A stretch of DNA of 64,000 nucleotides from Motilibacter deserti (GTDB lineage: Bacteria; Actinomycetota; Actinomycetes; Motilibacterales; Motilibacteraceae), in the NCBI RefSeq assembly GCF_011250635.1, contig NZ_JAANNP010000002.1, forward strand, positions 256,478 to 320,477, given 5' to 3'. The notes beneath the pieces were generated by a model that saw only the letters and a list, made by a program, of their open reading frames with translations, searched no databases and was not told the DNA's origin. Positions 2,778 through 45,296 of the stretch are shown in pieces. The position numbers and the translations under genes were made by a program. Each line of letters opens with the position of its first letter. Position 1 is the first letter of the stretch.

Positions 2778-3848
2778 GTGAGCCCGCGCACCGCCCCGTG
2801 GCGGGGTGTCGTGGAGGAGTTCCGCGACCGCCTGCCCGTCACCGCCGACACCCCGGTCGTCACCCTCCTCGAGGGCAACACCCCGCTCGTGCCCGCCGGT
2901 GAGCTGTCCGCCCGCACAGGCTGCGACGTCTATCTCAAGGTCGAGGGCGCCAACCCGACCGGCTCGTTCAAGGACCGCGGCATGACCGTGGCCATGAGCG
3001 TCGCTATCGGTGAGGGGGCCAAGGCGGTCATCTGCGCCTCGACGGGCAACACCAGCGCCTCGGCCGCGGCGTACGCGGCCCGGGCCGGCGTGCGCAGCGC
3101 GGTCCTCGTGCCGCAGGGCAAGATCGCCACCGGCAAGCTGGCGCAGGCCGTGATCCACGGCGCGACGATCCTGCAGGTCACCGACGGCGGGTTCGACGAG
3201 TGCCTCGTCCTCGCCCGCGAGCTGTCCGAGCGCTTCCCGGTGGCCCTGGTGAACTCGGTCAACCCGGTCCGCCTGCAGGGGCAGAAGACCGCCGCGTTCG
3301 AGGTGGTCGCCGCCCTCGGCGACGCGCCCGACGTGCACTGCCTGCCCGTGGGCAACGCCGGCAACGTGTCGGCCTACTGGATCGGCTACACCGAGGACCA
3401 CGCCGCGGGCAACGCCACCCGGCGGCCGCGCATGTGGGGCTTCCAGGCGGCGGGCGCCGCTCCGCTCGTCTCGGGCCAGCCGGTGCCCAACCCCGAGACC
3501 ATCGCGACGGCCATCCGCATCGGCAACCCGGCCTCGTGGGCGCTCGCGGTCGCCGCGCGCGACGAGTCCGACGGCGTCGTGGAGGCGGTGACCGACCAGC
3601 AGATCCTCGCCGCACAGCGGCTGCTCGCCGACCGCGAGGGCGTCTTCGTCGAGCCGGCGTCGGCGGCGGGCGTCGCCGGGCTGCTCGCGCGGACGGAGCG
3701 CGGCGAGGTCGACCCCGGCCAGCGCATCGTCTGCACGGTCACCGGCCACGGCCTCAAGGACCCGCAGTGGGCCATGCCCGAGGGCGTGCAGCCGGTCGCG
3801 GTCCCCGTCGACGCCGGCGCCGCCGCTGCCGCGCTCGGGCTCGCCTGA
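2778..3848 (+). CDS. thrC: Threonine synthase
   Basis: Converts O-phosphohomoserine to threonine using PLP. 356 aa, normal for the short actinobacterial type. The PLP lysine is K65 in [11 protein letters not shown], and the phosphate loop [14 protein letters not shown] follows. GTG start with GGAGG five bases upstream (2768-2772). It is 114 bases from hom, a gap that may hold a promoter; TACGCT at 2741-2746 is a weak -10 candidate with no clear -35. thrB follows six bases after the stop. Confidence 0.96.
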
Positions 3849-3854
3849 CCGGCG

Positions 3855-4826
3855 GTGGCAGGCTCCCCCGCCGATGGCGGCGGCCTCGGCCCGGTCGACG
3901 TCGATGCCCCTGACCTGGGGGGCGCGGCACTCGTGGACGGCCCCGTGCGGCTGCAAGTGCCCGCGACGAGCGCCAACCTCGGCGCCGGGTTCGACGCGTT
4001 CGGCCTCGCCGTCGGCCTGTTCGACGACCTCACGTTCCAGGCGGCGCAGTCCGGCGTCCAGGTCGAGGTCGAGGGGGAGGGCGTGGACGACGTCCCCCGG
4101 GACGAGCGACACCTCGTGGTGCGCGCCATGGCCGCGGCGTTCGACGCGATGGGCGTGCGCATGCCCGGCGTCGCGCTGGCCTGCCACAACCGGATCCCGC
4201 ACGGCCGCGGGCTGGGCTCGTCGTCCGCCGCGATCGTCGCCGGAGTGCTCGGCGCGCGTGCGCTGGTCACGGACGGGGAGCGGCGGCTGGACGACGCCGC
4301 GGCGCTCGACGTCGCCGCCCGCCTCGAGGGCCACCCCGACAACGTGGCGCCCTGCCTGCTGGGCGGCTTCACGATCGCGTGGCAGGAGGACGCCGGGGCG
4401 CGCGCCGTACGCCTCGAGCCGGCCGCCGGCCTCGCCGCCGTGGCCTACGTCCCCGCCGAGCCGGTCGCGACCGAGCACGCCCGCCGGCTGCTCCCGGCGA
4501 CGGTCCCGCACGCCGACGCGGCGCGCAACGCCGGCCGCGCCGCGCTCCTGGTCCACGCGCTGACCGCCGACCCCTCGCTGCTGCTTCCGGCGACGGAGGA
4601 CCGGCTGCACCAGGGCTACCGCGAGCCGGCCATGCCGCGCAGCGCGGCCCTCGTGGCCCGGCTGCGGGCGGACGGCGTGCCGGCCGTTATCTCGGGTGCC
4701 GGCCCGACGGTGCTGGCACTTGTCCCGGCCGCTGACGCCGAGGCGCTCGCTGCGGCGGGGGAGCCGGGCTTCCGCGCCCTGCCGCTGACGATAGAGCGCG
4801 CCGGCGTCCGGCGCCCCGCCGGCTGA
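3855..4826 (+). CDS. thrB: Homoserine kinase
   Basis: Phosphorylates homoserine for ThrC; GHMP kinase family. The ATP-binding GHMP motif PHGRGLGSSSAAIVAG is near residue 114, preceded by the substrate-side VPATSANLGAGFDAFGLA. 323 aa from the GTG at 3855. This start has no clear ribosome site and adds about 27 residues not typical of the family. A GTG near 3933 just before GPVRLQVPATSANLG, behind a run of Gs, is a good alternative and would give the usual length. Confidence 0.93.
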   Translation: MAGSPADGGGLGPVDVDAPDLGGAALVDGPVRLQVPATSANLGAGFDAFGLAVGLFDDLTFQAAQSGVQVEVEGEGVDDVPRDERHLVVRAMAAAFDAMGVRMPGVALACHNRIPHGRGLGSSSAAIVAGVLGARALVTDGERRLDDAAALDVAARLEGHPDNVAPCLLGGFTIAWQEDAGARAVRLEPAAGLAAVAYVPAEPVATEHARRLLPATVPHADAARNAGRAALLVHALTADPSLLLPATEDRLHQGYREPAMPRSAALVARLRADGVPAVISGAGPTVLALVPAADAEALAAAGEPGFRALPLTIERAGVRRPAG

Positions 4827-5309
4827 CGCAGGACGACCGCTCGCCACCCCGTCAGCTCGTGGGCCGACGGATGACGCGCGTCGTCCCCGTCGACGTGCCG
4901 CTCCCGCACCACGCTCGGCTCGGGGGCTGGGCGTCAGCCCGCCGCGCCAGGTATCCTCGTGTCGGGCAGATCGCGCGGCACTTCCGCGTTATAGTCGTTG
5001 TGCGCCGACCGACCTTCGGGCTTCCGGTGCGTTCGACCGTCTCGACGGCTCCCGCTGCGATGTGGCGCTCGCGACACATCGACCCCCAAGCGTGCTGCAT
5101 GCCCGTGCCGCCCCCGGGCTGCTGGTCGCTTCTCGGTACGCGGGAGGCGCGAGCCCTTCGACCCGTCGCCGAGGCGACGGTTCACCCCCCATTCAGCCCG
5201 CCGATCCCGGCGGGAACACCCCGGTAGCCCCGGGGTCGCTGACCGGGACCCTCCCCGACAGGGGCAGGGACGCATCTCCCGGCCGAGCTCGTCAAGGGAA
5301 GGACCCTTC
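4827..5309 (+). promoter_or_regulatory. rho upstream region and long leader
   Basis: No protein gene is supported in these 483 bases. TATAGT at 4990-4995 is the best -10 and would give a leader of about 300 nt; its -35 is weak. A second -10-like TATCCT is at 4952-4957. The leader has several GC hairpins, including CCGTCGCC/GGCGACGG near 5163-5181 and CCGCCG/CGGCGG near 5199-5215. The rho ribosome site AGGGAAGGA is at 5295-5303. Autoregulated leaders are known for rho in other bacteria; a similar role here is inferred. Confidence 0.45.
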
Positions 5310-7646
5310 GTGAGCGACACCATCGACCTCCTCACCGCGCCCGATGGCGGGCGTGCCGAGGAGCCGCGCGGAGCACAGGCCCCGGCCGACTCCGCGCCAG
5401 CATCCGGTGCCGACGCAGACGTACCCGCGCAGTCCCCCTCGCGCGGCCGCCGCCGTGCTCCCGGCCTGGCCGGCATGGTGCTCCCCGAGCTCCAGTCGCT
5501 CGCGGCCGAGCTGGGCATCGGCGGGACCGCCCGGATGCGCAAGCCCGCGCTGATCGAGGCGATCCAGGCCCGCCAGGCGGGCGGCACGAACGGCGCCGCC
5601 GCGGCCGACGCCGCGCCGTCCAACGGCGCCGCTGCCGCGCAGGCCCCCGCCGCCGATGCGCCGGCCGCCACCCGCCCGGCCCGGACCCGGCGTACGCGTG
5701 CCGAGCGCCCGACCGAGCAGCCCGCGCTCGACCTGCAGAACGGTGCCGCCGCAACTGCTCCGGCCGAGGCCACGGAGCTCGCGCGTACGGCTGCCCCGTC
5801 GACCGAGGAGCGCCCGACCGAGGAGCGCCCGACCGAGGAGCGCCCGGCCGAGACCGCGCGCGCTGCGACGCCGGAGCCTTCCACGCCCGACACCGAGAGC
5901 GCGCCCGAGCGCGAGCCGCGGGGTGACCGGCGCGACCGTCAGGAGCGCGGGGACCGCCAGGACCGTGGCGAGCGCGGGGACCGCCAGGAGCGCGGCGACC
6001 GGCAGGACCGCGGCGAGCGCGGAGACCGTCAGGAGCGCGGGGACCGTCAGGACCGTGGGGACCGGCAGGACCGTGGGGACCGGCAGGACCGCGGCGAGCG
6101 CGGAGACCGTCAGGAGCGCGGGGACCGCCAGGAGCGCGGCGACCGCGGCGAGCGCGGCGAGCGGCAGGACCGCGGCGAGCGCGGCGACCGCCAGGACCGT
6201 GGCGAGCGGCAGGAGCGCGGCGACCGCCAGGACCGTGGCGAGCGGCAGGACCGTGGCGAGCGGCAGGACCGCGGCGAGCGGCAGGACCGCGGCGAGCGCG
6301 CCGACCGCCAGGAGCGCGGTGACCGTGGCGACCGCAACGACCGTGGCGACCGCAACGACCGTGGCCCGGCGACCGAGGACGACGACGACCTCGACGGCGG
6401 GCGTGGCCGGCGTCGGCGCGGCCGCTACCGCGACCGCGCCGGGCGCCGACGCGGCCGTGACGGTCAGCTGCTCGACGCGCCGGGCGAGCCGGAGGTCGGC
6501 GACGACGACGTCCTGGTGCCCGTCGCCGGTGTCGTCGACATCCTCGACAACTACGCCTTCCTGCGCACCAGCGGATACCTCCCCGGGCCGAACGACGTCT
6601 ACGTCTCGCTCGCCCAGGTGCGGCGGCACGGCCTGCGCAAGGGCGACGCCGTCACCGGCGCGGTCCGCCAGCAGCGCGACGGCGAAGCGCGCCGGGAGAA
6701 GTTCAACGCCCTGGTCCGGGTCGACTCCGTCAACGGCGGGGACCCGGAGAAGGCGCGTGCGCGCGTCGAGTTCAACAAGCTGACGCCGCTCTACCCGCAG
6801 GAGCGGCTGCGGCTGGAGACCGACCCGAGCGTCTTCACCACGCGGATCATCGATCTCGTGGCCCCCATCGGGAAGGGCCAGCGCGGGCTCATCGTGTCCC
6901 CGCCGAAGGCCGGCAAGACGATGGTCCTGCAGGCGATCGCCAACGCCATCGCGGTGAACAACCCCGAGGTCCACCTCATGGTCGTGCTCGTCGACGAGCG
7001 CCCCGAAGAGGTCACCGACATGCAGCGCTCGGTCAAGGGCGAGGTCATCGCCTCGACCTTCGACCGCCCGGCCGACGACCACACCACGGTCGCCGAGCTC
7101 GCGATCGAGCGGGCCAAGCGCCTGGTGGAGATGGGCCACGACGTCGTCGTGCTGCTCGACTCGATCACCCGCCTCGGACGTGCCTACAACCTCGCCGCTC
7201 CGGCGAGCGGGCGCATCCTCTCCGGCGGTGTCGACTCGGCGGCGCTCTACCCGCCGAAGCGCTTCTTCGGTGCTGCCCGCAACATCGAGAACGGCGGCTC
7301 GCTGACCATTCTCGCGACAGCGCTCGTGGAGACCGGGTCCCGCATGGACGAGGTCATCTTCGAGGAGTTCAAGGGCACCGGGAACATGGAGCTCAAGCTC
7401 GACCGCAAGCTCGCGGACAAGCGGCTCTTCCCGGCCGTCGACGTGGACGCCTCCGGCACCCGCCGTGAGGAGATCCTCATGGACCGCTCCGAGCTGCAGA
7501 TCGTCTGGAAGCTGCGCCGGGTGCTGTCGGCGCTCGAGCAGCAGCAGGCGCTCGAGCTCGTCATCGGCAAGCTGCGCGAGACCAAGAGCAACGCCGAGTT
7601 CCTGCTGCAGATCCAGAAGACCACGCCGGGCGCCGACCACGACTGA
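5310..7646 (+). CDS. rho: Transcription termination factor Rho
   Basis: Hexameric RNA-dependent ATPase that ends transcription. 778 aa, far longer than the roughly 420 aa of E. coli Rho because of an inserted Arg/Asp/Glu/Gln-rich segment, a known trait of actinobacterial Rho. Order: Rho_N helix domain (about 52-91), Ala/Pro-rich linker, repetitive DRQERG-type region (about 206-352), [18 protein letters not shown] basic patch, cold-shock-like RNA-binding domain (about 404-465), then the ATPase with Walker [12 protein letters not shown] (about 531) and Walker [17 protein letters not shown]. The GTG at 5310 has AGGGAAGGA six bases upstream; the longer frame from 4998 is spurious. A strong terminator follows. 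Confidence 0.97.
5925..6366 (+). repeat. In-frame degenerate repeats coding the Rho basic/acidic domain
   Basis: About 440 bases of short in-frame repeats such as GACCGCCAGGAGCGCGGC and variants, coding permutations of DRQ, ERG, DRG and GDR. Unit length varies by multiples of three, so the frame is kept. The opposite strand gives meaningless Arg/Ser- or Val/Leu-rich frames. Such tracts tend to change in length between strains. Confidence 0.9.
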
Positions 7647-7861: not shown

Positions 7862-7877
7862 AAAGTGATATCACTTT
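7862..7877. promoter_or_regulatory. 16-bp perfect palindrome, probable operator
   Basis: AAAGTGATATCACTTT, a perfect AT-rich inverted repeat in GC-rich surroundings, 36 bases before the SPFH gene. TATCGC follows at 7880-7885 and could be a -10, so the palindrome would sit in the promoter. The second gene of the unit codes a ribbon-helix-helix protein, a class that often binds such palindromes and represses its own operon. That pairing is inferred. Confidence 0.7.
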
Positions 7878-7913
7878 GCTATCGCACATCACCGCACACC
7901 GAGGGGGTAGCCG

Positions 7914-8900
7914 ATGACCGCCACCACTCCCGCACCGGCCGGCCAGGGCAGCGTCCCGCCGGTCGACGCGCCGCCGCAGGACCGTCCGGTCGGCCACGCC
8001 GGCACCCGGGTCGAGATCGACGAGCACACCGCCTGGCAGGCGAACGGGCTCTGGGCCGTGCTCGGCGTGCTGGCCCTGGTAGCGCTGGCCGCGTGGCAGG
8101 TCGTGCGGGTCGTCGGCTTCGAGGAGCAGACGCCGGCGAACGTCGTCCCCGCCGCCGTGATCGCGGGGGTGTGCGTGCTGCTGGTGCTCGTCGTCCTCGG
8201 CTCGCTGACCGTCGTCGCCCCCGGGCGCACCAACGTCGTTCAGTTCTTCGGCCGCTACGTCGGCACCGCGCGCCGCACCGGCCTGGTCTGGCTCCCTCCG
8301 CTCACCAGCCGGCGGGGCATGAGCGTCCGGGTGCGCAACTTCGAGACCAGCCACCTCAAGGTCAACGACGCCGACGGCAACCCGGTCGACATCGCGGCGA
8401 TCGTCGTGTGGCAGGTCGCGGACACCGCGAAGGCGACGTTCGCGGTCGAGGACTACACGGCGTTCGTGGAGATCCAGGCCGAGGCGGCGCTGCGTCACGT
8501 GGCGACCACGCACCCGTACGACAGCGGCGACCCTGGCGCGACGTCGCTGCGCGGGTCGACCGACGAGGTGGCCGGCGAGCTCGCCGTCGAGGTGGCCGAG
8601 CGGGTCGCGGTCGCCGGCGTCGAGATCGTCGAGGTGCGCATCAGCCATCTCGCGTACGCCCAGGAGGTCGCGCAGGCCATGCTGCAGCGCCAGCAGGCCG
8701 GGGCCATCGTGGCGGCCCGCGAGCGGATCGTCGACGGTGCGGTCGGAATGGTCCGGATGGCGCTGGACAAGCTCGCGGACGAGGCGATCGTCGAGCTCGA
8801 CGACGAGCGCAAGGCGGCGATGGTGTCGAACCTGCTCGTCGTCCTCTGCGGCGACAGCCGGGCGACCCCCGTGGTGAACACGGGCACGCTCTACTCCTGA
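7914..8900 (+). CDS. SPFH/band-7 domain membrane protein
   Basis: 328 aa. Two hydrophobic segments at about 44-64 and 76-100 are followed by a stomatin/prohibitin-type SPFH domain (from about residue 100: TVVAPGRTNVVQFFGRYVGT, then NFETSHLKVNDADGNPVDI and VVWQVADTAKATFAVEDY). The C-terminal part has the usual helical stretch with AMLQRQQAGAIVAARERIVD. Family members form large membrane-bound oligomers and microdomains; no client can be read from this sequence. ATG with GAGGGGG six bases upstream. It is followed after one base by the ribbon-helix-helix gene, so the two are one operon behind the 7862 palindrome. Confidence 0.88.
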   Translation: MTATTPAPAGQGSVPPVDAPPQDRPVGHAGTRVEIDEHTAWQANGLWAVLGVLALVALAAWQVVRVVGFEEQTPANVVPAAVIAGVCVLLVLVVLGSLTVVAPGRTNVVQFFGRYVGTARRTGLVWLPPLTSRRGMSVRVRNFETSHLKVNDADGNPVDIAAIVVWQVADTAKATFAVEDYTAFVEIQAEAALRHVATTHPYDSGDPGATSLRGSTDEVAGELAVEVAERVAVAGVEIVEVRISHLAYAQEVAQAMLQRQQAGAIVAARERIVDGAVGMVRMALDKLADEAIVELDDERKAAMVSNLLVVLCGDSRATPVVNTGTLYS

Positions 8901-8901
8901 C

Positions 8902-9177
8902 GTGTCCGGCGACCAGAGCGCGGACGAGCAGGGCGCGCCGCCCCCGCAGCGGGGCAAGGGGCGCCACAGCGTGCTCCTGCGGCTCGACCCCGGCGTTCAC
9001 GAGGCGCTGGTGCGCTGGGCCGGGGACGAGTTGCGCAGCGTCAACGCGCAGATCGAGCTGCTGCTGCGGCGCGCCCTCGCCGAGGCGGGGCGGCTGCCGG
9101 GGGACGTACGCCCGGTACCGCGCCGCGGGCGGCCGCGGCGTACCGAGGACGACGGCCGGCCCGACCAGCGGGGCTGA
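8902..9177 (+). CDS. Small ribbon-helix-helix (Arc-type) DNA-binding protein
   Basis: 91 aa. Residues about 20-62 fit the Arc/MetJ ribbon-helix-helix fold: a short strand RHSVLLRLDPGVHEALV, then helices WAGDELRSVNAQIELLLRRAL. The flanks are Pro/Arg-rich and probably disordered. It starts with GTG one base after the SPFH stop with no ribosome site of its own, which points to translational coupling. Likely role: repressor of the SPFH operon through the palindrome at 7862-7877. Such proteins are often labelled as antitoxins, but no toxin gene is adjacent. Confidence 0.75.
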   Translation: MSGDQSADEQGAPPPQRGKGRHSVLLRLDPGVHEALVRWAGDELRSVNAQIELLLRRALAEAGRLPGDVRPVPRRGRPRRTEDDGRPDQRG

Positions 9178-9322
9178 CCGGCGGGAATCGCAGCCCGGGG
9201 CCCCGCGTTGATGCGTCTGGCACACTGTGCCTGACGGTTCCGGTCCACGGCGAGGCGGCGCGACGAGAGCGCCGGGCACACCAGCCGACCCGGCGACCCC
9301 CAGACCCGAGAGGCGGTTCGGC

Positions 9323-9556
9323 ATGAAGCCCGAGATCCACCCGCAGTACAACGTCACGACCGTGACCTGCACCTGCGGCAACACGTTCCAGACGCGCAGC
9401 ACGGCGGCGAACGGCGTCATCAACGCCGACACGTGCTCGGCCTGCCACCCGTTCTACACCGGCAAGCAGCGCATCCTCGACACCGGCGGCCGCGTGGCCC
9501 GCTTCGAGCAGCGCTTCGGCAAGAGCGGCAAGGGCGCGCAGGCTCCCACCAAGTAG
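9323..9556 (+). CDS. rpmE: 50S ribosomal protein L31, zinc-binding form
   Basis: 77 aa component of the large ribosomal subunit. Four zinc-ligand cysteines are present (C16, C18, C38, C41 in CTC and CSAC), so this is the zinc-replete paralogue; a zinc-free copy may exist elsewhere. The ATG at 9323 gives the standard [10 protein letters not shown] start with GAGAGG nine bases upstream; the longer frame from 9227 adds unrelated residues. A terminator follows nine bases after the stop. Confidence 0.97.
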
Positions 9557-9564
9557 CGACTCCA

Positions 9565-9606
9565 CGGCGCCGGTCCGGCGGGCAGCAGCCCGTCCGGCCG
9601 GCGCCG
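9565..9606 (+). terminator. Terminator after rpmE
   Basis: Long GC-rich stem: CGGCGCCGG (9565-9573) pairs with CCGGCGCCG (9598-9606), continuing through CCGG and GGGC/GCCC with small bulges around an AGCA loop. TTCG follows. It lies just past the rpmE stop and before prfA. Confidence 0.7.
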
Positions 9607-9670
9607 TTCGCATGTCCGGGCGAGTGCCACGCTGGCCCGGGACGTCAGCACCCCCGAGGAGGAGCCTCCC

Positions 9671-10755
<1,085 letters not shown>

Positions 10756-36037: not shown

Positions 36038-36406
36038 GTGACGGAGCAGGTGGCCGAGCGCCCCGAGGCTCTGGTGGATGAGCGGCCATGGGGACGTTTC
36101 GAGCGGCTCGCTCTGAACGAGACCGTGACCGTCAAGGTGATCACGGTGGAGCCGGGCCACCGGCTGTCGCTGCAGCGCCACACCACCCGTGACGAGTCCT
36201 GGCAGATCCTGGACGCCGGCCTCTACGTCGAGATCGACGGCAAGCGCTGGTCGCCGGTCGTGGGGGAGCAGGTCTGGATCCCGCGCGGCGTGACCCACCG
36301 GGTCGGCAACGACGGCACGGCGTCGGCGCGGTTTCTCGAGGTGGCCTACGGCTGGTTCGACGAGGACGACATCGAGCGCATCGAGGACGACTACTCGCGG
36401 GCCTGA
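36038..36406 (+). CDS. Cupin protein, mannose-6-phosphate isomerase type II-like
   Basis: 122 aa, equal to the stand-alone C-terminal cupin of ManC-type enzymes. RPWGRFERLAL near the N-terminus, PGHRLSLQRHTTRDESWQIL with the metal histidines and glutamate, and GEQVWIPRGVTHRVGN as the second cupin motif. It may isomerise mannose-6-phosphate for GDP-mannose, which would suit the polysaccharide genes to the right; this is inferred. GTG with GAGGAGG six bases upstream; TAGGTA at 36005-36010 is a -10 candidate. Its 3' end overlaps the convergent gene by 16 bases. Confidence 0.8.
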   Translation: MTEQVAERPEALVDERPWGRFERLALNETVTVKVITVEPGHRLSLQRHTTRDESWQILDAGLYVEIDGKRWSPVVGEQVWIPRGVTHRVGNDGTASARFLEVAYGWFDEDDIERIEDDYSRA

Positions 36407-36996
36407 GCCCGCAGCACCCGCCCCGGCCGCGCCACCACGAGCGCGGCCGCGGCGGTGAGCGCGCAGCCATAGGCGACGTACGGGATCGTGACGTGGCGCG
36501 GCGTCAGCGGCCACCAGAGCGCCACCGGCGCCGTGGCCAGGTCGCGCAGCAGATGCAGAGCCACCCCCGTCGCGATCCCGGCAGCGACGACGCGCAGCCG
36601 GCCGCGTGCCGCGAGCGCGACGAGCGCCGCCAGCGCCAAGGTCGTCATCGAGTGCGGGTAGGGCCGGGGCGTACCCGACGTCAGCACCTGGGAGTCGAAG
36701 ACCGCGTCGGGGACGTGGTCGGCATCGATGAGCACGGACGCGGCGAGCGCCACGAGCACGTAGGCCCGGGGGAGCGGTCGCGGCCAGAGGGCCGCCAGCG
36801 CCGCGAGGCAGAGCGCCGCCGTCGTGAAGTGAGCGGGCTCGTCGACGAGGCCGAGCACGACGTACGACGGGGACTCGGCCTCGACGAAGCGGTCGATCAG
36901 CAGCACCAGGGCCAGCCCGAGCGCGGCCGCGAGTACGACCGCTCTGGGCCGCAGCCGCGGTGGAGGGGCCACCCTTCCCGGCTGCGCTGCCGTCAC
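36391..36996 (-). CDS. Membrane-bound metal-dependent hydrolase (YdjM/DUF457-like)
   Basis: 201 aa, about five membrane helices. Conserved polar residues sit at helix ends: DEPAHFTTAAL, LIDADHVPD, RPYPHSMTTL and GVALHLLRDL, the H/D pattern of the YdjM family of putative hydrolases. Start GTG overlaps the beta-helix gene stop by four bases (GTGA), so it is the last gene of the synthase operon. Its substrate is unknown; a role in lipid or polymer turnover during export is possible. Confidence 0.6.
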   Translation of the reverse strand: MTAAQPGRVAPPPRLRPRAVVLAAALGLALVLLIDRFVEAESPSYVVLGLVDEPAHFTTAALCLAALAALWPRPLPRAYVLVALAASVLIDADHVPDAVFDSQVLTSGTPRPYPHSMTTLALAALVALAARGRLRVVAAGIATGVALHLLRDLATAPVALWWPLTPRHVTIPYVAYGCALTAAAALVVARPGRVLRAQARE

Positions 36997-38216
36997 CGGC
37001 AGGCGACGTTCGCCAGGCCCTGCTTCGCCCCGGAGGCCTTGTTGTCGCACGAGACCCGGTTGTCGTTGACCGGCGTCAGCGAGAACCCGTGGCCCGGGCC
37101 GTTGACTCGCGCGACGTTGTCCCGGAAGACGTTGCCCTGGCCCCAGCCACCGAGGATCTCGTGGGTCTGGAAGCCGTCCTCGGGGCTGTTCACCCCGGTG
37201 TTGCCCTGCACGACCCAGTCGTTGCCCTTGACGTCCACCCACGAGTCCGCGCCGGCCTCGTCGATGGCGGACCCGTCGAAGGTGTTGTCCACGAGCTTGC
37301 CGCCGGTCGTGCCCTCCTTGATGTCCACCGCCTCGGCGGTCGTCTCGGAGATGGTGTTGCCGCGCACGACGTTGCGGTCGGAACGGTCCGGCTCGCAATC
37401 GGTGATGTCGCACCAGTTGCTCTTGGCCGTGCCGATGTAGATGCCCTCGCCGTACTTCGGCTTGCGCAGCCCGGTCCGGCGGACCGTGTTGCCCTCGACG
37501 AGGTTGTCGGTCGAGAACCCGCGCAGGTGGATGGCCTCGTCGCCGATGTCCTCCACCGTCAGCCCGGAGATCACGGTCGAGACGGCGCCGTCGGCCATGA
37601 CGCCCTTCTGCCCGTCCCGCACGGTGAACCCGGCGACCCGCCAGTGCGAGACGCCGTCGAGGTGCAGGACGTAGTCGTCGTCCGGCCCGTTGCCCTCGAG
37701 CACGGCGTCGGCCGGGCCGCAGAGCGCGATCGGCGCGTCCTGCGTCCCCGCACCGGTCGCGACGAAGGCGCCGTTGTAGGTGCCGGGAGCCAGCGCGATG
37801 CTGTCACCGGCCTGCGCCGTCGCCAGCGCGTCGGTCAGCTCGTCCGCGGTCGCGACGGTGACCGTCGGGTCCGGGCACGAGGGGTCGCCGGCGCCCGCGA
37901 CCTGGTCGCCGGGCGAGGGGTCGCTGTCGCCGGAGGGGTACGGCTCCGGGGTCGACGGCGGCTCGTACGCCCCCGTCTCCTCGGGCGCGGGGACGGCGTT
38001 GTCGTACGCCGTCGCAGAGGGGGTCGGGGACGGCGACGGCGAGGCGGCCGGCTGCGGCCCGACCGCGCGCAGGTCGGCGCCGACGTCGTCGGCCGCGTCG
38101 TCCGCGAGCGCGCTGGCCCCGAGCAGGAGGACGGCCGTGGTGCCGGCCCCGGCGAGGAAGGGCAGCACGGACTGGCGTGACGGCCGCTTGAGCTGCCGCC
38201 CGAAGAGCAACGTCAC
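36993..38216 (-). CDS. Secreted right-handed parallel beta-helix protein
   Basis: 407 aa. N-terminal signal-like segment (SVLPFLAGAGTTAVLLLGASALA), a Ser/Pro/Thr-rich spacer to about residue 100, then a lead-in CPDPTVTVATADELTDAL and a beta-helix from about 120 with repeated rungs such as VVRGNTISETTAEAVDIKEG and WVVQGNTGVNSPEDGFQTH. The fold is that of polysaccharide lyases and epimerases. No catalytic motif I can name with confidence. GTG shares four bases with the stop of the upstream gene. Confidence 0.82.
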   Translation of the reverse strand: MTLLFGRQLKRPSRQSVLPFLAGAGTTAVLLLGASALADDAADDVGADLRAVGPQPAASPSPSPTPSATAYDNAVPAPEETGAYEPPSTPEPYPSGDSDPSPGDQVAGAGDPSCPDPTVTVATADELTDALATAQAGDSIALAPGTYNGAFVATGAGTQDAPIALCGPADAVLEGNGPDDDYVLHLDGVSHWRVAGFTVRDGQKGVMADGAVSTVISGLTVEDIGDEAIHLRGFSTDNLVEGNTVRRTGLRKPKYGEGIYIGTAKSNWCDITDCEPDRSDRNVVRGNTISETTAEAVDIKEGTTGGKLVDNTFDGSAIDEAGADSWVDVKGNDWVVQGNTGVNSPEDGFQTHEILGGWGQGNVFRDNVARVNGPGHGFSLTPVNDNRVSCDNKASGAKQGLANVACR

Positions 38217-40189
38217 ACGATCGCCATGTCGTCGTCGTGCGTGCTCCCACCGGTCCGCTTGGTCCCGTTGGCCTTGCGGATGTCGATGGTGCGGGCCGCC
38301 GGGCGGGAGACGACCTCCTCGCCGTACGCGGTGGCGGCGGTGACCTGGTGCGGCAGCTGCGCGGAGTACGGCGCCCCCATCACGCCGCGGGCGCGGCGGC
38401 CGCGGGCGGCGGTGAAGAGGATGAGGAAGGCGATGAAGAGCCAGATCAGCGTCATCGGGTGGATCCAGCTCTTGAGCTTGACCCAGATGCTGCTCGTGTC
38501 GACCCAGCTCGAGGTTACGTTGTCGCTGACCTCGACCTTGCCGGACGAGCGGTGGTCGTCCAGCGCGCTGGACCCCTCGCCGGCGAGGAAGTTGTTGGTG
38601 ATCGAGGAGCCCGCGACGGCGCCGACGAAGGACACGCCGTGGCCGTCGGCGTCCTTGACCGTGTTGCCGAGCACCTCCGCGACCGACCCGCGGACGTAGA
38701 TGCCGGTGGTGCCCCCGCTGATCGCGTTGCCGCTCACGGTCGCATCGGTGACCCCGTCGCGGACCGAGACGGCGTGCCGCGCGTTGTCGACCAGCCGGTT
38801 GGCGGTGACGCTGACCTTGCTCGCGGCGGACCGGACGACGATGCCCATGTCGTTGCCGGTGATCTCGTTGTTGTTGACGTCGAGGTTGACGCCGCCGACC
38901 ACTTCGATGCCGTTGTGCGCGTTGTTGCGGGAGTAGCTGTTGGCGACCGTGTTGGAGCCCCACGGCTTGGTCTGCGCACCGGTCACGGACGGGCCGTCGG
39001 CGAGCGCTTCGCCCGACAGGTAGAACCCGTCGCCGCGGTTGGCCTCCGCGATCGAGTCCTGGATGTTGATGTGCTGGGCGGCGCGCGCCAGCGTGAACCC
39101 GGTGCCGCCGTTCAGCTTGGACGTCATGCGCTCGATCGAGCCGCTGGAGACGTAGCGGTGCAGGACCAGCCCGTCGACGAGGCTGCGCTGGATCACCGTG
39201 TCGGTGATGTTGAGCGACTTGGCGCCAGAGACGAAGAGGCCGAACGCGTTGCCGGTGAAGGTGCTGTCGGAGACCTCGCCGGAGACGAAGGTGTCCTCGT
39301 CGGTGGCGAACTCGGGGTCGTCGAGCACGTTGAGGTCGGTGATCCCGTTCTTGGCCAGCACGTCGTTCTGCGCCTGCTCCTGGCGGCGGGCGTCTCGTGC
39401 GGCGTTGCGCTCGGTCTTGCCCGAAGGCTTCGCGGGCTCGCCGGAAGCGATGCGGGTCGGGTCGATGGAGTTCGAGCGGTCGGTGCCGGTCAGGGCGACG
39501 CCGGCGGTGGAACCGCTCCAGAAGCCGAGGTCGGAGAAGTCGGCGTGCCGGACCATGACCTCGCCGCCGATGGCCCTGATGTAGGCGCGGCCGTCGTTGG
39601 TGAGGGTGTCGGGCTCGTTGGCCTGCGGGTCCCAGCTCTGGACGACGAGCGGCTTCTGCTCCGTGCCCGACAGGTCGAGCGCGCCGCCGATCGAGACGAT
39701 GCTGACGAAGGTGCCGTCGGCACCGCTGCGCATGCGGATGGGGCCGCTGGCACCACCCAGCGAGAGCGTGGACTTCGGCGGCAGGAAGAGGTTGTTCTCG
39801 AGCAGGAGGCCGCCGTCCGCCTGCTTGGTGAGGATGCCGACGGCGAGCAGGTCGTTCACCGTGTACGCGGCGCGGTTGGTCTTCGGGATGAGGATGACCG
39901 TGTTGTCGTTCGGCTCGTCGAGCTTGGGCTTGCCCGCCCGGTAGGTGTCCTGGTCCTGCCAGCGGATCAGCGAGACCTTCTTCCGGACCGCGAGGATCCG
40001 CTCCTCCTCGGCCTCGACCAGCGCGGCCTCATGGTCCGCGTCGCCCTGGTACGTCGCCGGCGGAGCGGCGTCCCACGGCTTGGCGTCGGCCGCCGAGGCC
40101 GTGCCGGCGGCGGCGCCCCCCAGCGCCACCGAGCCGAGCAGGGTCAGGGGGAGCAGCGCGCAACCGCGGCGCAGAAGGGACACGAGCAT
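38213..40189 (-). CDS. Membrane-anchored parallel beta-helix protein (NosD/AlgG-like fold)
   Basis: 658 aa. Signal peptide MLVSLLRRGCALLPLTLLGS ending near TASAADA, a 250-residue beta domain, then beta-helix rungs (about 310-570: NAFGLFVSGAKSLNITDTVI, GIEVVGGVNLDVNNNEIT, ISGGTTGIYVRGSVAEVLGN). A C-terminal membrane helix WIHPMTLIWLFIAFLILFTA precedes a short basic cytosolic tail. It would thus stand outside the membrane next to the synthase encoded just upstream. The DPH signature of alginate epimerases was not seen. ATG at 40189 gives a clean signal peptide; a frame from 40243 is longer without one. Confidence 0.85.
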   Translation of the reverse strand: MLVSLLRRGCALLPLTLLGSVALGGAAAGTASAADAKPWDAAPPATYQGDADHEAALVEAEEERILAVRKKVSLIRWQDQDTYRAGKPKLDEPNDNTVILIPKTNRAAYTVNDLLAVGILTKQADGGLLLENNLFLPPKSTLSLGGASGPIRMRSGADGTFVSIVSIGGALDLSGTEQKPLVVQSWDPQANEPDTLTNDGRAYIRAIGGEVMVRHADFSDLGFWSGSTAGVALTGTDRSNSIDPTRIASGEPAKPSGKTERNAARDARRQEQAQNDVLAKNGITDLNVLDDPEFATDEDTFVSGEVSDSTFTGNAFGLFVSGAKSLNITDTVIQRSLVDGLVLHRYVSSGSIERMTSKLNGGTGFTLARAAQHINIQDSIAEANRGDGFYLSGEALADGPSVTGAQTKPWGSNTVANSYSRNNAHNGIEVVGGVNLDVNNNEITGNDMGIVVRSAASKVSVTANRLVDNARHAVSVRDGVTDATVSGNAISGGTTGIYVRGSVAEVLGNTVKDADGHGVSFVGAVAGSSITNNFLAGEGSSALDDHRSSGKVEVSDNVTSSWVDTSSIWVKLKSWIHPMTLIWLFIAFLILFTAARGRRARGVMGAPYSAQLPHQVTAATAYGEEVVSRPAARTIDIRKANGTKRTGGSTHDDDMAIV

Positions 40190-40258
40190 CGTCCTACCTG
40201 TTGATGTTGGCGCGTGCAGGGGGTTCGCCGGGAAGTACGCCATGTGGGCGCGCGAGGT

Positions 40259-41524
40259 TCAGGCCGGCTCGGGGGCGAGGGTCGACGAGCCCTGGGCCTC
40301 GGCGCCCACGGAGTCGGCCGACCGGGTCAGCCAGCCCTGCTTGTTCATGGTCACGAACGCGTAGAGCTTGATCGGCAGGGCGATGAGCACGACGACCACC
40401 GCGACGACCGGGAGCAGGAGGAGCTCCTGCGGGTGGCGGCGCAGGTGCGCGGCGCCCCGGATGCCGCGGCCGACGAGCAGCCAGGCGGCGGCCAGCAGGA
40501 TGCCCATGCCGACGCCCGAGCTGAAGTCCAGACGGGAGAAGAGCAGGTAGGTGATCGTCAGGCCCATGGTCAGCGGCGTGAGCAGGATCTGCAGGACGGT
40601 GACCTTCGTGATGAAGGGGACTCGCCAGAGCCAGCCCTTCCACAGCGCGGTGAGGTAGGTGCGGTAGGAGTTGCGGCTCCACCGGATGCGCTGCTTGGCG
40701 AAGGCGCGGAACGTGTCGGGGAACATCGACAGGGCCTTGGCGCTGCTCTGGTGGACGGTCTTGAACCCGGACGCGAGGACCAGCCAGGTGAGCCGGCCGT
40801 CGTCACCGGACACGCACCGCTTGCCGAGGAAGAACTCGTGCTCGAGGTGCTGCAGGACCGGCAGGACGGCCGCGCGCCGGTAGACCGCGGTGCGCCCCGA
40901 CACGCAGGCCACCGCTCCCGCCCGGCCCATGGCCGGGACGTAGTCCAGGTAGCGCAGGTTGACCAGCCAGTCGGCGACCCGCCGCCAGATGCTGGTCGTG
41001 CGCTGGTAGACGTTCTGCTGCGTGCTGACCGCGCCGACCTTCGGGTCGACGAACGGCATCTGCACGGCCTCGAGCAGGCCCGGGCGCCACGAGGTGTCCG
41101 AGTCGCAGAGGATGAGCAGCTCGCCCTTGGCGGCGCGGATGCCGACGCCGAGCGCCGAGCGCTTGCCGTGGTGGGCGAAGCGGATGACGCGCAGCCGGGG
41201 GTCCTCGACGGTGGCCAGCGCCTCCATGCAGGCGGCGTCGGCGACGTCCACGACGACCAGGACCTCGGTGGGGTCCTGGGCGAGCCAGGAGCGCAGGCAG
41301 CGCAGCAGCGTCTCGGGGTCCTCGCGGTAGGACGGGACGACCACGGAGGTGGTGGTGCGGTAGTCGTTCACCACGGGGTGCGCTCGCCGCGACAGCACGA
41401 AGCGGTAGATCCAGAGCGACCAGACCACGAGGCCGGCGACCCCGACGGGCAGGACCTCTTTCCAGGAGCCCTGCCCGAGGTCGTGGAGGACCTCCGCGAG
41501 CGTCGTCTGGACAGCGTCCAGCAA
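40259..41524 (-). CDS. Processive family-2 glycosyltransferase (hyaluronan/cellulose synthase type)
   Basis: 421 aa from the TTG at 41524. One membrane helix near 25-44, then a GT-A domain with VVVPSYREDP, D141-S-D143 in LILCDSDTSWRPG, SGRTAVYRR, CVSGDDGRLT and the QRIRW-type product motif (AKQRIRWSRNSY), followed by about four helices. This set marks polymerising synthases that also move the chain across the membrane. The TTG has AGGGGG nine bases upstream. No ATG or GTG in a sensible place exists; the frame back to 41884 runs through non-coding sequence. TAGGGT (41579-41574, minus) is a -10 candidate. First gene of the operon with two beta-helix proteins. Confidence 0.85.
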   Translation of the reverse strand: MLDAVQTTLAEVLHDLGQGSWKEVLPVGVAGLVVWSLWIYRFVLSRRAHPVVNDYRTTTSVVVPSYREDPETLLRCLRSWLAQDPTEVLVVVDVADAACMEALATVEDPRLRVIRFAHHGKRSALGVGIRAAKGELLILCDSDTSWRPGLLEAVQMPFVDPKVGAVSTQQNVYQRTTSIWRRVADWLVNLRYLDYVPAMGRAGAVACVSGRTAVYRRAAVLPVLQHLEHEFFLGKRCVSGDDGRLTWLVLASGFKTVHQSSAKALSMFPDTFRAFAKQRIRWSRNSYRTYLTALWKGWLWRVPFITKVTVLQILLTPLTMGLTITYLLFSRLDFSSGVGMGILLAAAWLLVGRGIRGAAHLRRHPQELLLLPVVAVVVVLIALPIKLYAFVTMNKQGWLTRSADSVGAEAQGSSTLAPEPA

Positions 41525-42186: not shown

Positions 42187-42424
42187 TTCCGCATGGTGTG
42201 GCAAGGCACGTAGATTGGCCGCGGTCGGACAAGCTGGGGTGTGCGCCAAAGCGAGAGGGATTTCCCGCCGGTGGGGAATTGGCGGCTTCGACCGCACTCG
42301 TGCCGCTACGGCAGGCAGTGCGCCGACGGTGACGGCACCGCCGCTGAACCGGGGTGACGAGGGGGCGTCAACGCGCTCCGACGGTCGCGCGCGAACCGTC
42401 GGAGCCACGGAAGGGGCAGGCGCA
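42187..42424 (+). promoter_or_regulatory. Promoter and structured leader of the exopolysaccharide operon
   Basis: TTCCGC (42187-42192) and TAGATT (42211-42216) form an 18-base-spaced promoter candidate. The roughly 200-base leader then holds TTCCC/GGGAA near 42262-42278, a GCACT..TGCCG/CGGCA..AGTGC hairpin (42294-42321), and an 11-bp perfect stem (42375-42385 with 42395-42405) that ends just before the ribosome site AAGGGG at 42411. The last stem could block or expose that site. Confidence 0.45.
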
Positions 42425-43642
42425 ATGAGGGTTCTGCACGTCAGTCAGCCCGTCGCGGAGGGCGGTGTCGCCCGGTGGGTGAGCCTGCTCGCCCGCGATC
42501 AGACGGCCAGGGGCTGGGACGTCCACGTCGCCTCTCCGGTCGTCGGGTCCTTCCGGCAGGACGTGCACCGGCTGGGATGCACGCACCACGACTGGCGCGC
42601 GTCGCGCTCGCCGGGCCCGGCGTCCGTCGTGGAGGTTCGCCGGCTGGCCCGGGTCATCGAGCGGGTTCGCCCGGACGTGCTCCACCTGCACAGCAGCAAG
42701 GCCGGGCTGGCCGGTCGGCTCGCGGTGCGGGGGAGGACGGCCACGATCTTCCAGCCGCACGCCTGGTCCTTCCAGGCCATCACCGGGCCGATGGCGTCGG
42801 CCGCCGCCGGCTGGGAGCGCGTGGCCGCTCGCTGGGCGCACCGTGTGGTCTGCGTCAGTGAGCACGAACGCCAGGTTGGGCTTGCGAGCGGCATCAGCAG
42901 CGACCGGCTCGAGGTCATCGCCAACGGCGTCGACTCCGAGGAGTGGCCGTACGCCGACGGGGCCGCGCGGGCGGGCGCCCGCGCCGCGCTCGAGGTCCCG
43001 GCCACCGCGCCCATCGCGGTGTGCGTGGCCCGGCTGGTGCGGCAGAAGGGCCAGGACCAGCTGATCTCGGCCTGGGCCGCGGTCCGTGCCCGGGTACCCG
43101 ACGCCCTGCTCTACGTGGTCGGCGACGGGCAGGAGCGTGAGCGCTTCGCCGAGCTGACGAGCAGCGTGCCCGGGGCGACCCTGGTCGCCGAACGGCAGGA
43201 CGCTGCGGGCGTACGCGCCTGGATGACCGCCGCGGACGTCGTCGTCTTCCCGTCCCGGTGGGAGGGGATGGCCCTCGCCACGCTGGAGGCCGCGGCCACC
43301 GGCCGGAGCGTCGTCGCGACGGACACCGGCGGCATGGCCGAGATCCTCGGCACGGGCGCCGCCGCGGGCGGAGCCGTCGTGCCACTGGACGACGAGGCCG
43401 CGGTGGTCGCCCGGCTGGCCGAGGCCGTGGCCGACCGGCTGGGGGCGCGCGTGATGGCCGACGCGGAGGGCCGGCGCGGGCGTCGGCGGGTGCAGGAGCA
43501 CTTCTCGCTGGAGAGGGCGCTGGCGCGCACCGCCCAGGTGGCGGACGAGGCGTACCTGCGGGCCAACGGCCGTGCCGTCGCTCCTGCCGTCATCGACCTG
43601 CGCGAGCGGGATAGGTCCGCGAGTGTGCGGGGGCAGCGATAG
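42425..43642 (+). CDS. Family-4 glycosyltransferase
   Basis: 405 aa GT-B enzyme. N-terminal acceptor half RVLHVSQPVAEGGVARWVSL and VLHLHSSKAGLAGRLA, a linker ANGVDSEEWPY, and donor half with VARLVRQKGQDQLISAW and FPSRWEGMALATLEAAATGR, where the E...E pair holds the nucleotide sugar. Retaining cytosolic transferase for an unknown sugar. ATG with AAGGGG eight bases upstream, behind the structured leader. First gene of the exopolysaccharide block. Confidence 0.88.
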   Translation: MRVLHVSQPVAEGGVARWVSLLARDQTARGWDVHVASPVVGSFRQDVHRLGCTHHDWRASRSPGPASVVEVRRLARVIERVRPDVLHLHSSKAGLAGRLAVRGRTATIFQPHAWSFQAITGPMASAAAGWERVAARWAHRVVCVSEHERQVGLASGISSDRLEVIANGVDSEEWPYADGAARAGARAALEVPATAPIAVCVARLVRQKGQDQLISAWAAVRARVPDALLYVVGDGQERERFAELTSSVPGATLVAERQDAAGVRAWMTAADVVVFPSRWEGMALATLEAAATGRSVVATDTGGMAEILGTGAAAGGAVVPLDDEAAVVARLAEAVADRLGARVMADAEGRRGRRRVQEHFSLERALARTAQVADEAYLRANGRAVAPAVIDLRERDRSASVRGQR

Positions 43643-43805
43643 CGGCCGCGGGCCGCTCGACGTCCCGGCGACCGACGGAGGGGACGGTCGGCGCGACGCG
43701 GGGAGTGGCGGCTTCTGCACCTGTCGGGCGACCGCGCTGGACAGAATGCTCGCGCGGTAGGCGCCGGCTGGCCGGCCCGCAGGAGAACATCGGGAAAGGC
43801 ACGAG

Positions 43806-45296
43806 ATGACGACGACCACGGCAGGCGCGGCCCCGCCCTCCCGGCCCTTGCTCGACCGGAGGGCCCTGCGCCAATGGCCGGTCGTCCTCGGCGCCGCCGT
43901 GCTCGGCGCCGTCGCAGGCGTCCTGCTGCAGCTCGCCCAGGCCGACACGTGGACGGCCTCGACGCGCATCGACATGGCACCCGCCCAGAGCCTGTCGTCC
44001 CCGGACCAGACCGACCGGCTGATCCAGGCCGAGCTGCTCTACCTGACCGGCCCGGCGGGCGCCCAGGCGCTCGCGGCCGCGGTGCCGGACGCAGCCGACG
44101 TCGCGCTCAGCGCGCGCCAGGTCGGGCTGACCGACCTGCTCGAGGTGCAGGCGACGGCGCCGTCGCGGGACGCGGCGGAGGGGGCGGCCACGGCCGGCGC
44201 ACGGGCGGTGGAGGAGCACGTCCGCCAGGGAGTCCAGGAGCGGCTGACCTCCCTGCAGCAGGAGTTCTCCGACGTGTCCGGGCGGCTGGCCGCCCTGCCG
44301 GCGTCCGGCGGGAGCGACGACGTCCGGCTCGAGCGGGCAAGCCTGCAGGCGCAGTACGACGCCCTGCTCGCCAGCCTGGCGCAGGCCCGGGTGGCGGCCA
44401 GCAGCCCGCAGACCCAGCTGGTGGACGGCGCTGCGGCGCTGGTGGCGCAGGACAGCGCGTCGCCTGCCCGCGGGGCGGCGCTCGGCGGCCTCCTGGGGGC
44501 CGTCGTGGGGCTCGCACTGGTGCTCGTCCGCCGCCGCGTCTGGCGGGTGGACGACGCGGAGGACCTCGAGGCGCTGAACGTCCGGGCGCTCGGCGCCCTG
44601 CCCACGTCCGGAAGCGAGGCCGTCGACCTGGCCGCGCTCCGCGACCGGCCCGCGGGCGACCCGGTGGAGTCCGCTGCCCGGCAGGTGGCCGGCCGACTGC
44701 TTCCCGTACGCGGGCGCGTGGCCCCGGTCGCCGTGGTCCAGGCGCTCGAGGCCGGCGCTTCGGCGGCCGCGTCCTCGGCCGCCCTGGACATCGCGGTCGC
44801 GCTCGCGCGGCAGGGCCCGACGGTGCTGGTGTGCGCCGCGGACGTCTACGAGCGGCGCATCGGGCGCTGGTTCAACCTCACCGACGACGCCTACGGCCTG
44901 GCCGATCTCAAGTTGGGCCAGGGGGCGCTGCCTCCCGCGGCGGAGATCCTGCAGCCGACGGGCGTGTCGGGCCTGTTCCTCCTGCCGGCGGGCAAGCCGG
45001 GCCCACGGGCGGTCGACCTGGCCGAGGACAACGTCGCCGGGCCGCTGCTGCAGACGCTGCGGGACGCGGACCTGTCCGTGGTCGTCGACGCGCCGTCCGC
45101 GGACCGCTCCGTGCTCGTCCACCGGCTCGCCGCGCTGGCCCCGGCCGTCGCGCTCGTGGCCCTCGCGGGCCGGACGCGCGTCGACGTCCTGGAGCGAGGC
45201 ATCGAGGACCTCACGGCGTCCGGCGTCGACCCCGCCGGGGTCGTCGTGGTCGGCTCGGCCGGTGCGCGTCGCATCGCGCTGGGCAAGCACCGGTGA
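43806..45296 (+). CDS. Chain-length/co-polymerase protein with degenerate tyrosine-kinase domain
   Basis: 496 aa. Membrane helix near 26-46, a periplasmic Wzz-like region with coiled coil (about 50-215), second helix near 222-242, then a cytosolic domain in the place of a bacterial tyrosine kinase. Its P-loop is lost: where GEGKST is expected the sequence is EAGASAAASSAALDIAVALA, and the Walker A' Asp line reads VLVCAADVYERR. It probably sets polymer length without kinase activity. ATG with GAAAGG upstream; 163 bases after the GT4 gene, with a GCGGCC/GGCCGC hairpin at 43641-43657. Confidence 0.8.
   Translation: MTTTTAGAAPPSRPLLDRRALRQWPVVLGAAVLGAVAGVLLQLAQADTWTASTRIDMAPAQSLSSPDQTDRLIQAELLYLTGPAGAQALAAAVPDAADVALSARQVGLTDLLEVQATAPSRDAAEGAATAGARAVEEHVRQGVQERLTSLQQEFSDVSGRLAALPASGGSDDVRLERASLQAQYDALLASLAQARVAASSPQTQLVDGAAALVAQDSASPARGAALGGLLGAVVGLALVLVRRRVWRVDDAEDLEALNVRALGALPTSGSEAVDLAALRDRPAGDPVESAARQVAGRLLPVRGRVAPVAVVQALEAGASAAASSAALDIAVALARQGPTVLVCAADVYERRIGRWFNLTDDAYGLADLKLGQGALPPAAEILQPTGVSGLFLLPAGKPGPRAVDLAEDNVAGPLLQTLRDADLSVVVDAPSADRSVLVHRLAALAPAVALVALAGRTRVDVLERGIEDLTASGVDPAGVVVVGSAGARRIALGKHR

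Follow-up and report, generated by a model that had tools for sequence, protein, structure and literature searches.

We analysed a 64,000-nucleotide stretch of the Motilibacter deserti genome (contig NZ_JAANNP010000002.1, positions 256,478 to 320,477; hereafter the window), in which four minus-strand genes encode a family 2 glycosyltransferase (GT2), two exported beta-helix proteins (BH1 and BH2) and a YdjM-family membrane protein (Table 1). The window lies on a 733-kb contig of a 5.0-Mb genome that is 98.7% complete, and its order is represented by five genomes only in the genome collection used. The initial annotation had read the four genes as a system for a Gram-positive-type synthase-dependent polymer modified at the membrane surface, by analogy with the alginate proteins Alg8 and AlgG. 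All four open reading frames (ORFs) were confirmed at the positions it had given, and the three genes it had described as joined by GTGA overlaps are linked by two of them, BH1/BH2 at 38213-38216 and BH2/YdjM at 36993-36996. The best start of the GT2 gene is a TTG at 41524, preceded by a G-rich, ribosome-binding-site-like stretch. BH1 starts at ATG 40189, which leaves a gap of 69 nt to GT2 (15 nt with the alternative ATG 40243), and both BH2 (38216) and the YdjM-like gene (36996) start with GTG.

Table 1. Genes of the operon, with positions in the window.
Product	Position	Strand	Remarks
Processive GT2 polysaccharide synthase (HAS/NodC-like)	40259..41524	minus	421 aa; predicted membrane segments flank catalytic domain
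BH1, exported AlgG-like parallel beta-helix protein with C-terminal membrane anchor	38213..40189	minus	658 aa; profile and fold matches
BH2, predicted exported PL31-type (PsAly-like) polyuronate lyase, N-terminal tether with Ser/Pro spacer	36993..38216	minus	407 aa
YdjM-family (PF04307) membrane protein, translationally coupled in the window	36391..36996	minus	201 aa

The GT2 matched PF13641 (E = 8e-30) and carries all three annotated motifs of a processive enzyme, DSD (residues 141-143), GDD (240-242) and QRIRW (278-282), with key residues invariant in 17 orthologues. NodC was its best named model (154.7 bits, against an NCBIfam equivalog cut-off of 550), and hyaluronan synthases (HAS) were its best Protein Data Bank (PDB) matches by profile. 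The window GT2 shares the processive signature and the type of membrane topology with both, but the GT2 clade of the operon is only remotely similar to either, and none is close. We found no other gene of this kind in the window genome, where the next matches were weak.

We surveyed the neighbourhood of these genes across actinobacteria with two seeds. A search seeded with BH1 gave a match in 30 of 395 genomes of the class, the window genome included. Of the 29 loci retrieved from the other genomes, 28 have GT2 next to BH1; the exception (L052) has a very weak BH1 match only and no module. BH2 is present in 26 of these 28 loci, and one of the two others is a truncated contig. The second, separate survey used a GT2 alignment as seed on named genomes, with 254 relatives confirmed and 79 loci kept; the two sets partly overlap, and some contigs are identical. 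BH1 lies immediately downstream of GT2 in all 79 loci, BH2 is found in each of the 72 loci that are not cut off, and a nucleotide-sugar dehydrogenase of the uridine diphosphate (UDP)-glucose-6-dehydrogenase type (UGD) occurs in 63 of the 79. The gene order was GT2-BH1 (1-2 copies)-BH2 (1-2 copies)-UGD. About 30 actinobacterial genera were represented, including Streptomyces, Actinoplanes, Kribbella, Microbispora, Actinomadura, Nonomuraea, Catellatospora, Kineococcus, Nakamurella, Cellulomonas, Arthrobacter and Cryobacterium. With GT2, BH1 and BH2 conserved together across tens of species, a chance association is excluded.

When the ORFs surrounding the operon were all clustered for 41 loci, no further widely conserved neighbour emerged, and none of the Alg44, AlgK, AlgX or AlgE kind, which bears out the annotated absence of an Alg44/AlgK/AlgX partner. 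The YdjM-like protein keeps its family label (PF04307, 36.5 bits against a Pfam gathering cut-off of 29). Apart from the window, its gene was found next to the operon in a single genome, of the same genus, and this distribution ruled it out as a core component. The four-gene system of the initial annotation is thus reduced to a conserved core of GT2-BH1-BH2. Two tandem operon copies within ~13 kb, with two dehydrogenase genes between them, were seen in Herbiconiux sp. (L080). A search for plasmid-borne copies of the operon found none.

BH2 matched PsAly (6KFN) at E = 1.4e-43 (phmmer). PsAly, from Paenibacillus sp. FPU-7, is an endolytic lyase that prefers polymannuronate, with Tyr184 and Lys221 as catalytic residues and Glu181, Glu216 and Asp219 as cation ligands (PMC6796002); a review places it in PL31 (PMC8618178). 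The AlphaFold2 model of BH2 (predicted local distance difference test mostly >90 over residues 112-407) aligned with 6KFN at a TM-score of 0.87 and a root-mean-square deviation of 2.0 Å, with the next match far behind. Residues were equated with a BH2-PsAly numbering offset of 34, verified residue by residue on the phmmer alignment. The catalytic Tyr260 and Lys300 and the cation ligands Glu257, Glu295 and Asp298 are present in 104-105 of 105 orthologues. Lys204, His230, Arg232, Asp324, Asp328, Lys330, Gln350 and His352 are further equivalents of PsAly site residues, and each active-site residue listed here is kept in 102-105 of the 105 family members in the loci set. Where PsAly has Asp188 and Lys191, BH2 has Ala and Asn, so its substrate preference may differ from that of PsAly. 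What sets BH2 apart from PsAly, with which its catalytic domain shares the fold, the catalytic Tyr/Lys pair and the cation ligands, is its place in a synthase operon and its N-terminus, where the annotated export segment and Ser/Pro spacer were both seen (a hydrophobic segment, then a disordered spacer to ~residue 111). BH2 is a PsAly-type lyase homologue with the published active site intact and a probable lyase activity. The window genome holds four further BH2 homologues off the operon (L011 ~7864-9183, L012 ~8076-9602, L013 ~8666-10216 and L014 ~3487-5463); the lyase active site is complete in three of them and incomplete in the fourth.

BH1 has the N-terminal hydrophobic leader and C-terminal anchor that had been annotated, the latter a helix at residues 578-600 followed by a basic tail. 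As a single sequence it matched AlgG at E = 1.7 only, and a profile of 22 BH1 sequences matched AlgG at E = 8.5e-15. AlgE6, AlgE4 and other mannuronan epimerases followed at 1e-8 to 4e-8, and the next match was NosD (7e-4). AlgG was also the best PDB fold match of the AlphaFold2 model (E = 5.7e-11), and mannuronan epimerases took all of places 1-9. The fold alignment with AlgG is moderate (TM-score 0.6 by target length, ~13% identity), and BH1 scored 10.1 bits on the NCBIfam AlgG model, whose cut-off is 700. These matches support the Alg8/AlgG analogy of the initial annotation.

In AlgG, the histidine of the DPHD motif is the probable proton-abstracting residue, an arginine acts as charge shield, and Tyr314 holds the donor water (PMC4444821). 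The profile alignment placed BH1 His344 on AlgG His319 and BH1 Arg369 on AlgG Arg345. AlgG numbers were obtained by adding 68 to chain numbers 251 and 277, consistent with Asp317 (4NK8 title) and Tyr314 (PMC4444821). BH1 His344, Arg345 and Arg369 are each conserved in 133 of 136 sequences, one of which has no sequence there. The initial annotation had noted the lack of a DPH epimerase motif. This is correct for the full motif, since window BH1 reads VLHR at the site and DP occurs in few relatives only, but BH1 is still detectably homologous to AlgG, with the motif reduced to xLHR. Its relatives form a series of DPHD (L050), DPHT (L138), DAH (L137), DLH (L136) and, in the rest, mostly xLHR. BH1 is a distant AlgG homologue that shares with AlgG (4NK6) the beta-helix fold and the positions of the catalytic histidine and charge-shielding arginine, and it may share its activity. 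It differs from AlgG in an extra N-terminal region and the C-terminal transmembrane anchor.

In one genome of another class of the phylum, an AlgG-like domain and a GT2 form one 814-residue ORF (L138, 8320-10764, minus strand). Its AlgG-like domain has a YGIDPH motif and matched 4NK6 at E = 2.2e-17 and the NCBIfam AlgG model at E = 4.4e-25 (88 bits, under the cut-off of 700). The start of the fusion overlaps the stop of a nucleotide-sugar dehydrogenase gene whose product seemingly has no C-terminal domain. We found no other AlgG-GT2 fusion among the 27 genomes of that class in all. The fusion supports joint action of the synthase and the AlgG-like protein on a single chain.

The operonic dehydrogenase is nearest to UDP-glucose dehydrogenases, with 318 bits to 4A7P against 166 bits to guanosine diphosphate (GDP)-mannose dehydrogenase. 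A UGD-like motif and the segment GGGCLPKD are common to all 64 operonic dehydrogenases compared. GDP-mannose dehydrogenase was rejected as the partner on its weaker match, and at family level the enzyme is of the UDP-glucose type and not the AlgD (GDP-mannose dehydrogenase) of an alginate operon. The window genome has one UGD-type orthologue, off the operon on contig C250 (L009/L140), which shares 62-69% identity with the operonic set; a second family member, the only other one found there, is nearer to UDP-N-acetylmannosamine dehydrogenase. Because the operonic dehydrogenases and the window orthologue are of the UDP-glucose type, UDP-glucuronate (UDP-GlcA) is the likeliest donor. Judged by eye, the gene on C250 adjoins a LytR-CpsA-Psr-like gene.

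EC 4.2.2.14 is glucuronan lyase. One lineage (f18, ~12 genomes) adds a PL14-family lyase gene near the operon (PF21294, E = 8.3e-25), and vAL-1 of PL14 is listed under EC 4.2.2.14 (PMC8618178). This extra lyase gene counts in favour of a polyuronate product. No known RNA element near the window operon scored above any gathering score. In Catenuloplanes japonicus, a cyclic di-GMP (c-di-GMP)-II-GAG riboswitch (L053:8598-8682, plus strand) ends 285 nt upstream of GT2, and the interval holds no called gene; it was the only match to this model found in that genome. We found no other c-di-GMP-II-GAG element in 14 loci scanned, and a strictly filtered scan of 47 genomes gave no other hit at the operon. 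Other exopolysaccharide synthases are under c-di-GMP control, and this single case agrees with that pattern.

A small cupin gene (window 36038-36406, plus strand) lies tail to tail with the YdjM gene, with a 16-nt overlap. Its product resembles the C-terminal domain of mannose-1-phosphate guanylyltransferase/mannose-6-phosphate isomerase, and the gene turns up again close to the operon within the same family. On the other side, at 42215-45296 (plus strand) and divergent from the operon, there begins a cluster that includes genes for a GT4 glycosyltransferase and a polysaccharide tyrosine-autokinase-type protein; it is probably a separate polysaccharide locus.

Overall, our data suggest that GT2, BH1 and BH2 form a compact, Gram-positive-type synthase-dependent polyuronate system that probably uses the UDP-glucuronate route and that modifies and trims the chain on the outer side of the membrane. 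We give this reading a probability of about 0.68. It keeps the outline of the initial annotation, as a GT2 and two exported beta-helix proteins are conserved, puts names to the key enzymes and drops the YdjM part. In the proposed pathway, a UDP-glucose-6-dehydrogenase-type enzyme, judged from its nearest characterised relatives, would supply UDP-glucuronate. GT2 would polymerise it and thread the chain through its own membrane channel, as expected from the hyaluronan synthase family. BH1, tethered on the outer face by its C-terminal helix, would act on the emerging chain, most likely as a C5-epimerase. BH2, on its flexible N-terminal tether, would cleave uronate linkages by beta-elimination and so trim, release or clear chains like AlgL. 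The YdjM protein would stand outside the core of this pathway. We strongly infer that the polymer is a polyuronate, and it is likely glucuronate-based. The likeliest product is a glucuronan-like homopolymer, beta-linked and rich in glucuronate, that possibly contains some L-iduronate. A more specific version, in which a homopolyuronate made from UDP-glucuronate is C5-epimerised after polymerisation (a glucuronan/iduronan, or UDP-route analogue of alginate) throughout actinobacteria by an epimerase family departing from DPHD, is put forward tentatively.

Several observations weigh against this polyuronate reading. No member of the operon has a known activity, the donor sugar of GT2 cannot be read from sequence, and the assignment of the dehydrogenase is at family level only. 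The dehydrogenase gene is absent from some operons, and in a same-family genome (L025) no BH2 lies beside the operon. AlgG Asp317 (of DPHD) and Tyr314 are not retained in BH1, which may therefore be inactive or structural. The title of a reference in PMC4432689 states that polymer formation in Pseudomonas fluorescens requires the AlgG protein and not its epimerase activity, which makes a structural role of BH1 possible. PsAly itself favours polymannuronate rather than glucuronan. Beta-D-mannuronate and beta-D-glucuronate differ at C2 only, so one syn-elimination geometry could serve both in BH2.

True alginate, a polymannuronate made from GDP-mannuronate and partly epimerised to guluronate, would fit the AlgG and PL31 relatives, which act on mannuronan, the preference of PsAly for polymannuronate, and the mannose-6-phosphate-isomerase-type cupin gene that adjoins the window operon. 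It would require the dehydrogenase to function as a GDP-mannose dehydrogenase. Next to divergent operons, the dehydrogenases show about the same similarity to the two types, but the operonic enzyme is clearly nearer the UDP-glucose type (318 against 166 bits), the operon has no conserved gene of the GDP-mannose pathway, and the only other dehydrogenase of this family found in the window genome is nearer to UDP-N-acetylmannosamine dehydrogenase; we consider alginate unlikely. A single GT2 can take two donors in HAS and Cps3S. An alternating GlcA heteropolymer (hyaluronan- or heparosan-like, or cellobiuronate-like as in the pneumococcal type 3 capsule), modified and cleaved by BH1 and BH2, is conceivable on that ground, with hyaluronan synthases as the nearest solved relatives of GT2 and the UGD-type gene as the sole precursor gene in the operon. 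It is nevertheless improbable, as both beta-helix proteins are nearest to homopolyuronate enzymes and the GT2-HAS similarity is remote.

The best named model, NodC, would point instead to a chitin- or poly-N-acetylglucosamine-like polymer, in which the beta-helix proteins would serve as chaperones or binders without catalysis. The NodC score of 154.7 bits is far under the cut-off of 550, the neighbourhood offers no further conserved gene (a deacetylase, for example), and this reading would leave unexplained both the UGD-type neighbour and the retention of a lyase active site across 105 proteins, which makes this polymer very improbable. Least credible is a reading of the two beta-helix proteins as cell-surface adhesins or NosD-like proteins with no link to the synthase. 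Their Pfam labels are Beta_helix/NosD, but the fixed operon order in all loci, the AlgG-GT2 fusion and the intact lyase active site speak against it. The copper-related NosD reading was rejected because the nearest solved relatives are uronate enzymes, and the adhesin reading because the pneumococcal adhesin PfbA ranked low in the fold searches, well behind epimerases and lyases. The initial annotation had named two grounds for abandoning its proposal, a lack of joint occurrence in related genomes and a match of the beta-helix proteins to an adhesin family. Neither holds for the core, whose genes are found together and whose beta-helices match polyuronate-modifying enzymes.

The division of labour resembles that of the Pseudomonas/Azotobacter alginate operon (Alg8/AlgG/AlgL/AlgD), with a GT2 synthase, an AlgG-family beta-helix protein, a uronate lyase and a sugar-nucleotide dehydrogenase. 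The actinobacterial set differs in that its neighbourhood has no conserved Alg44, AlgK, AlgX or outer-membrane partner, its dehydrogenase is of the UDP-glucose type, its lyase is of the PL31 beta-helix type, BH1 is membrane-anchored and has lost the DP of DPHD, and its hosts are Gram-positive-type. To our knowledge, the Gram-positive Pel cluster has another gene set, with no AlgG-like or PL31-type protein. It is likewise a synthase-dependent exopolysaccharide operon in Gram-positive bacteria (PMC7112168). Brown algal alginate genes (ManC5-E, PL41, GMD) show the same mix of GT2, AlgG-type epimerase, SjAly-related beta-helix lyase and dehydrogenase, a likeness drawn from the literature and not from algal sequences. 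PsAly and SjAly are 24% identical (PMC6796002), and algal epimerases retain DPHD (PMC11468063). An earlier proposal derived the brown algal alginate genes from an ancestral actinobacterium (PMC8307928); for the dehydrogenase, an actinobacterial origin was judged not strongly supported (PMC11468063). The operon bears on this question and, if our reading is true, its relatives could be extant kin of the proposed actinobacterial source of the brown algal alginate enzymes.

We found no description of the operon in the open-access literature, with subscription papers outside the search. Judged from gene content, a pathway for an alginate-like acidic chain appears to exist in many soil actinobacteria, a group not known for such a pathway. 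Because synthase, epimerase homologue, lyase and dehydrogenase lie side by side in dozens of actinobacteria, the synthase candidate and the polymer chemistry are directly testable in cultivable Streptomyces; S. hyaluromycini (L055) is one species that carries the operon. The operon may supply new uronate-modifying enzymes, and common soil bacteria may turn out to have a matrix component outside the cell that has gone unrecognised.

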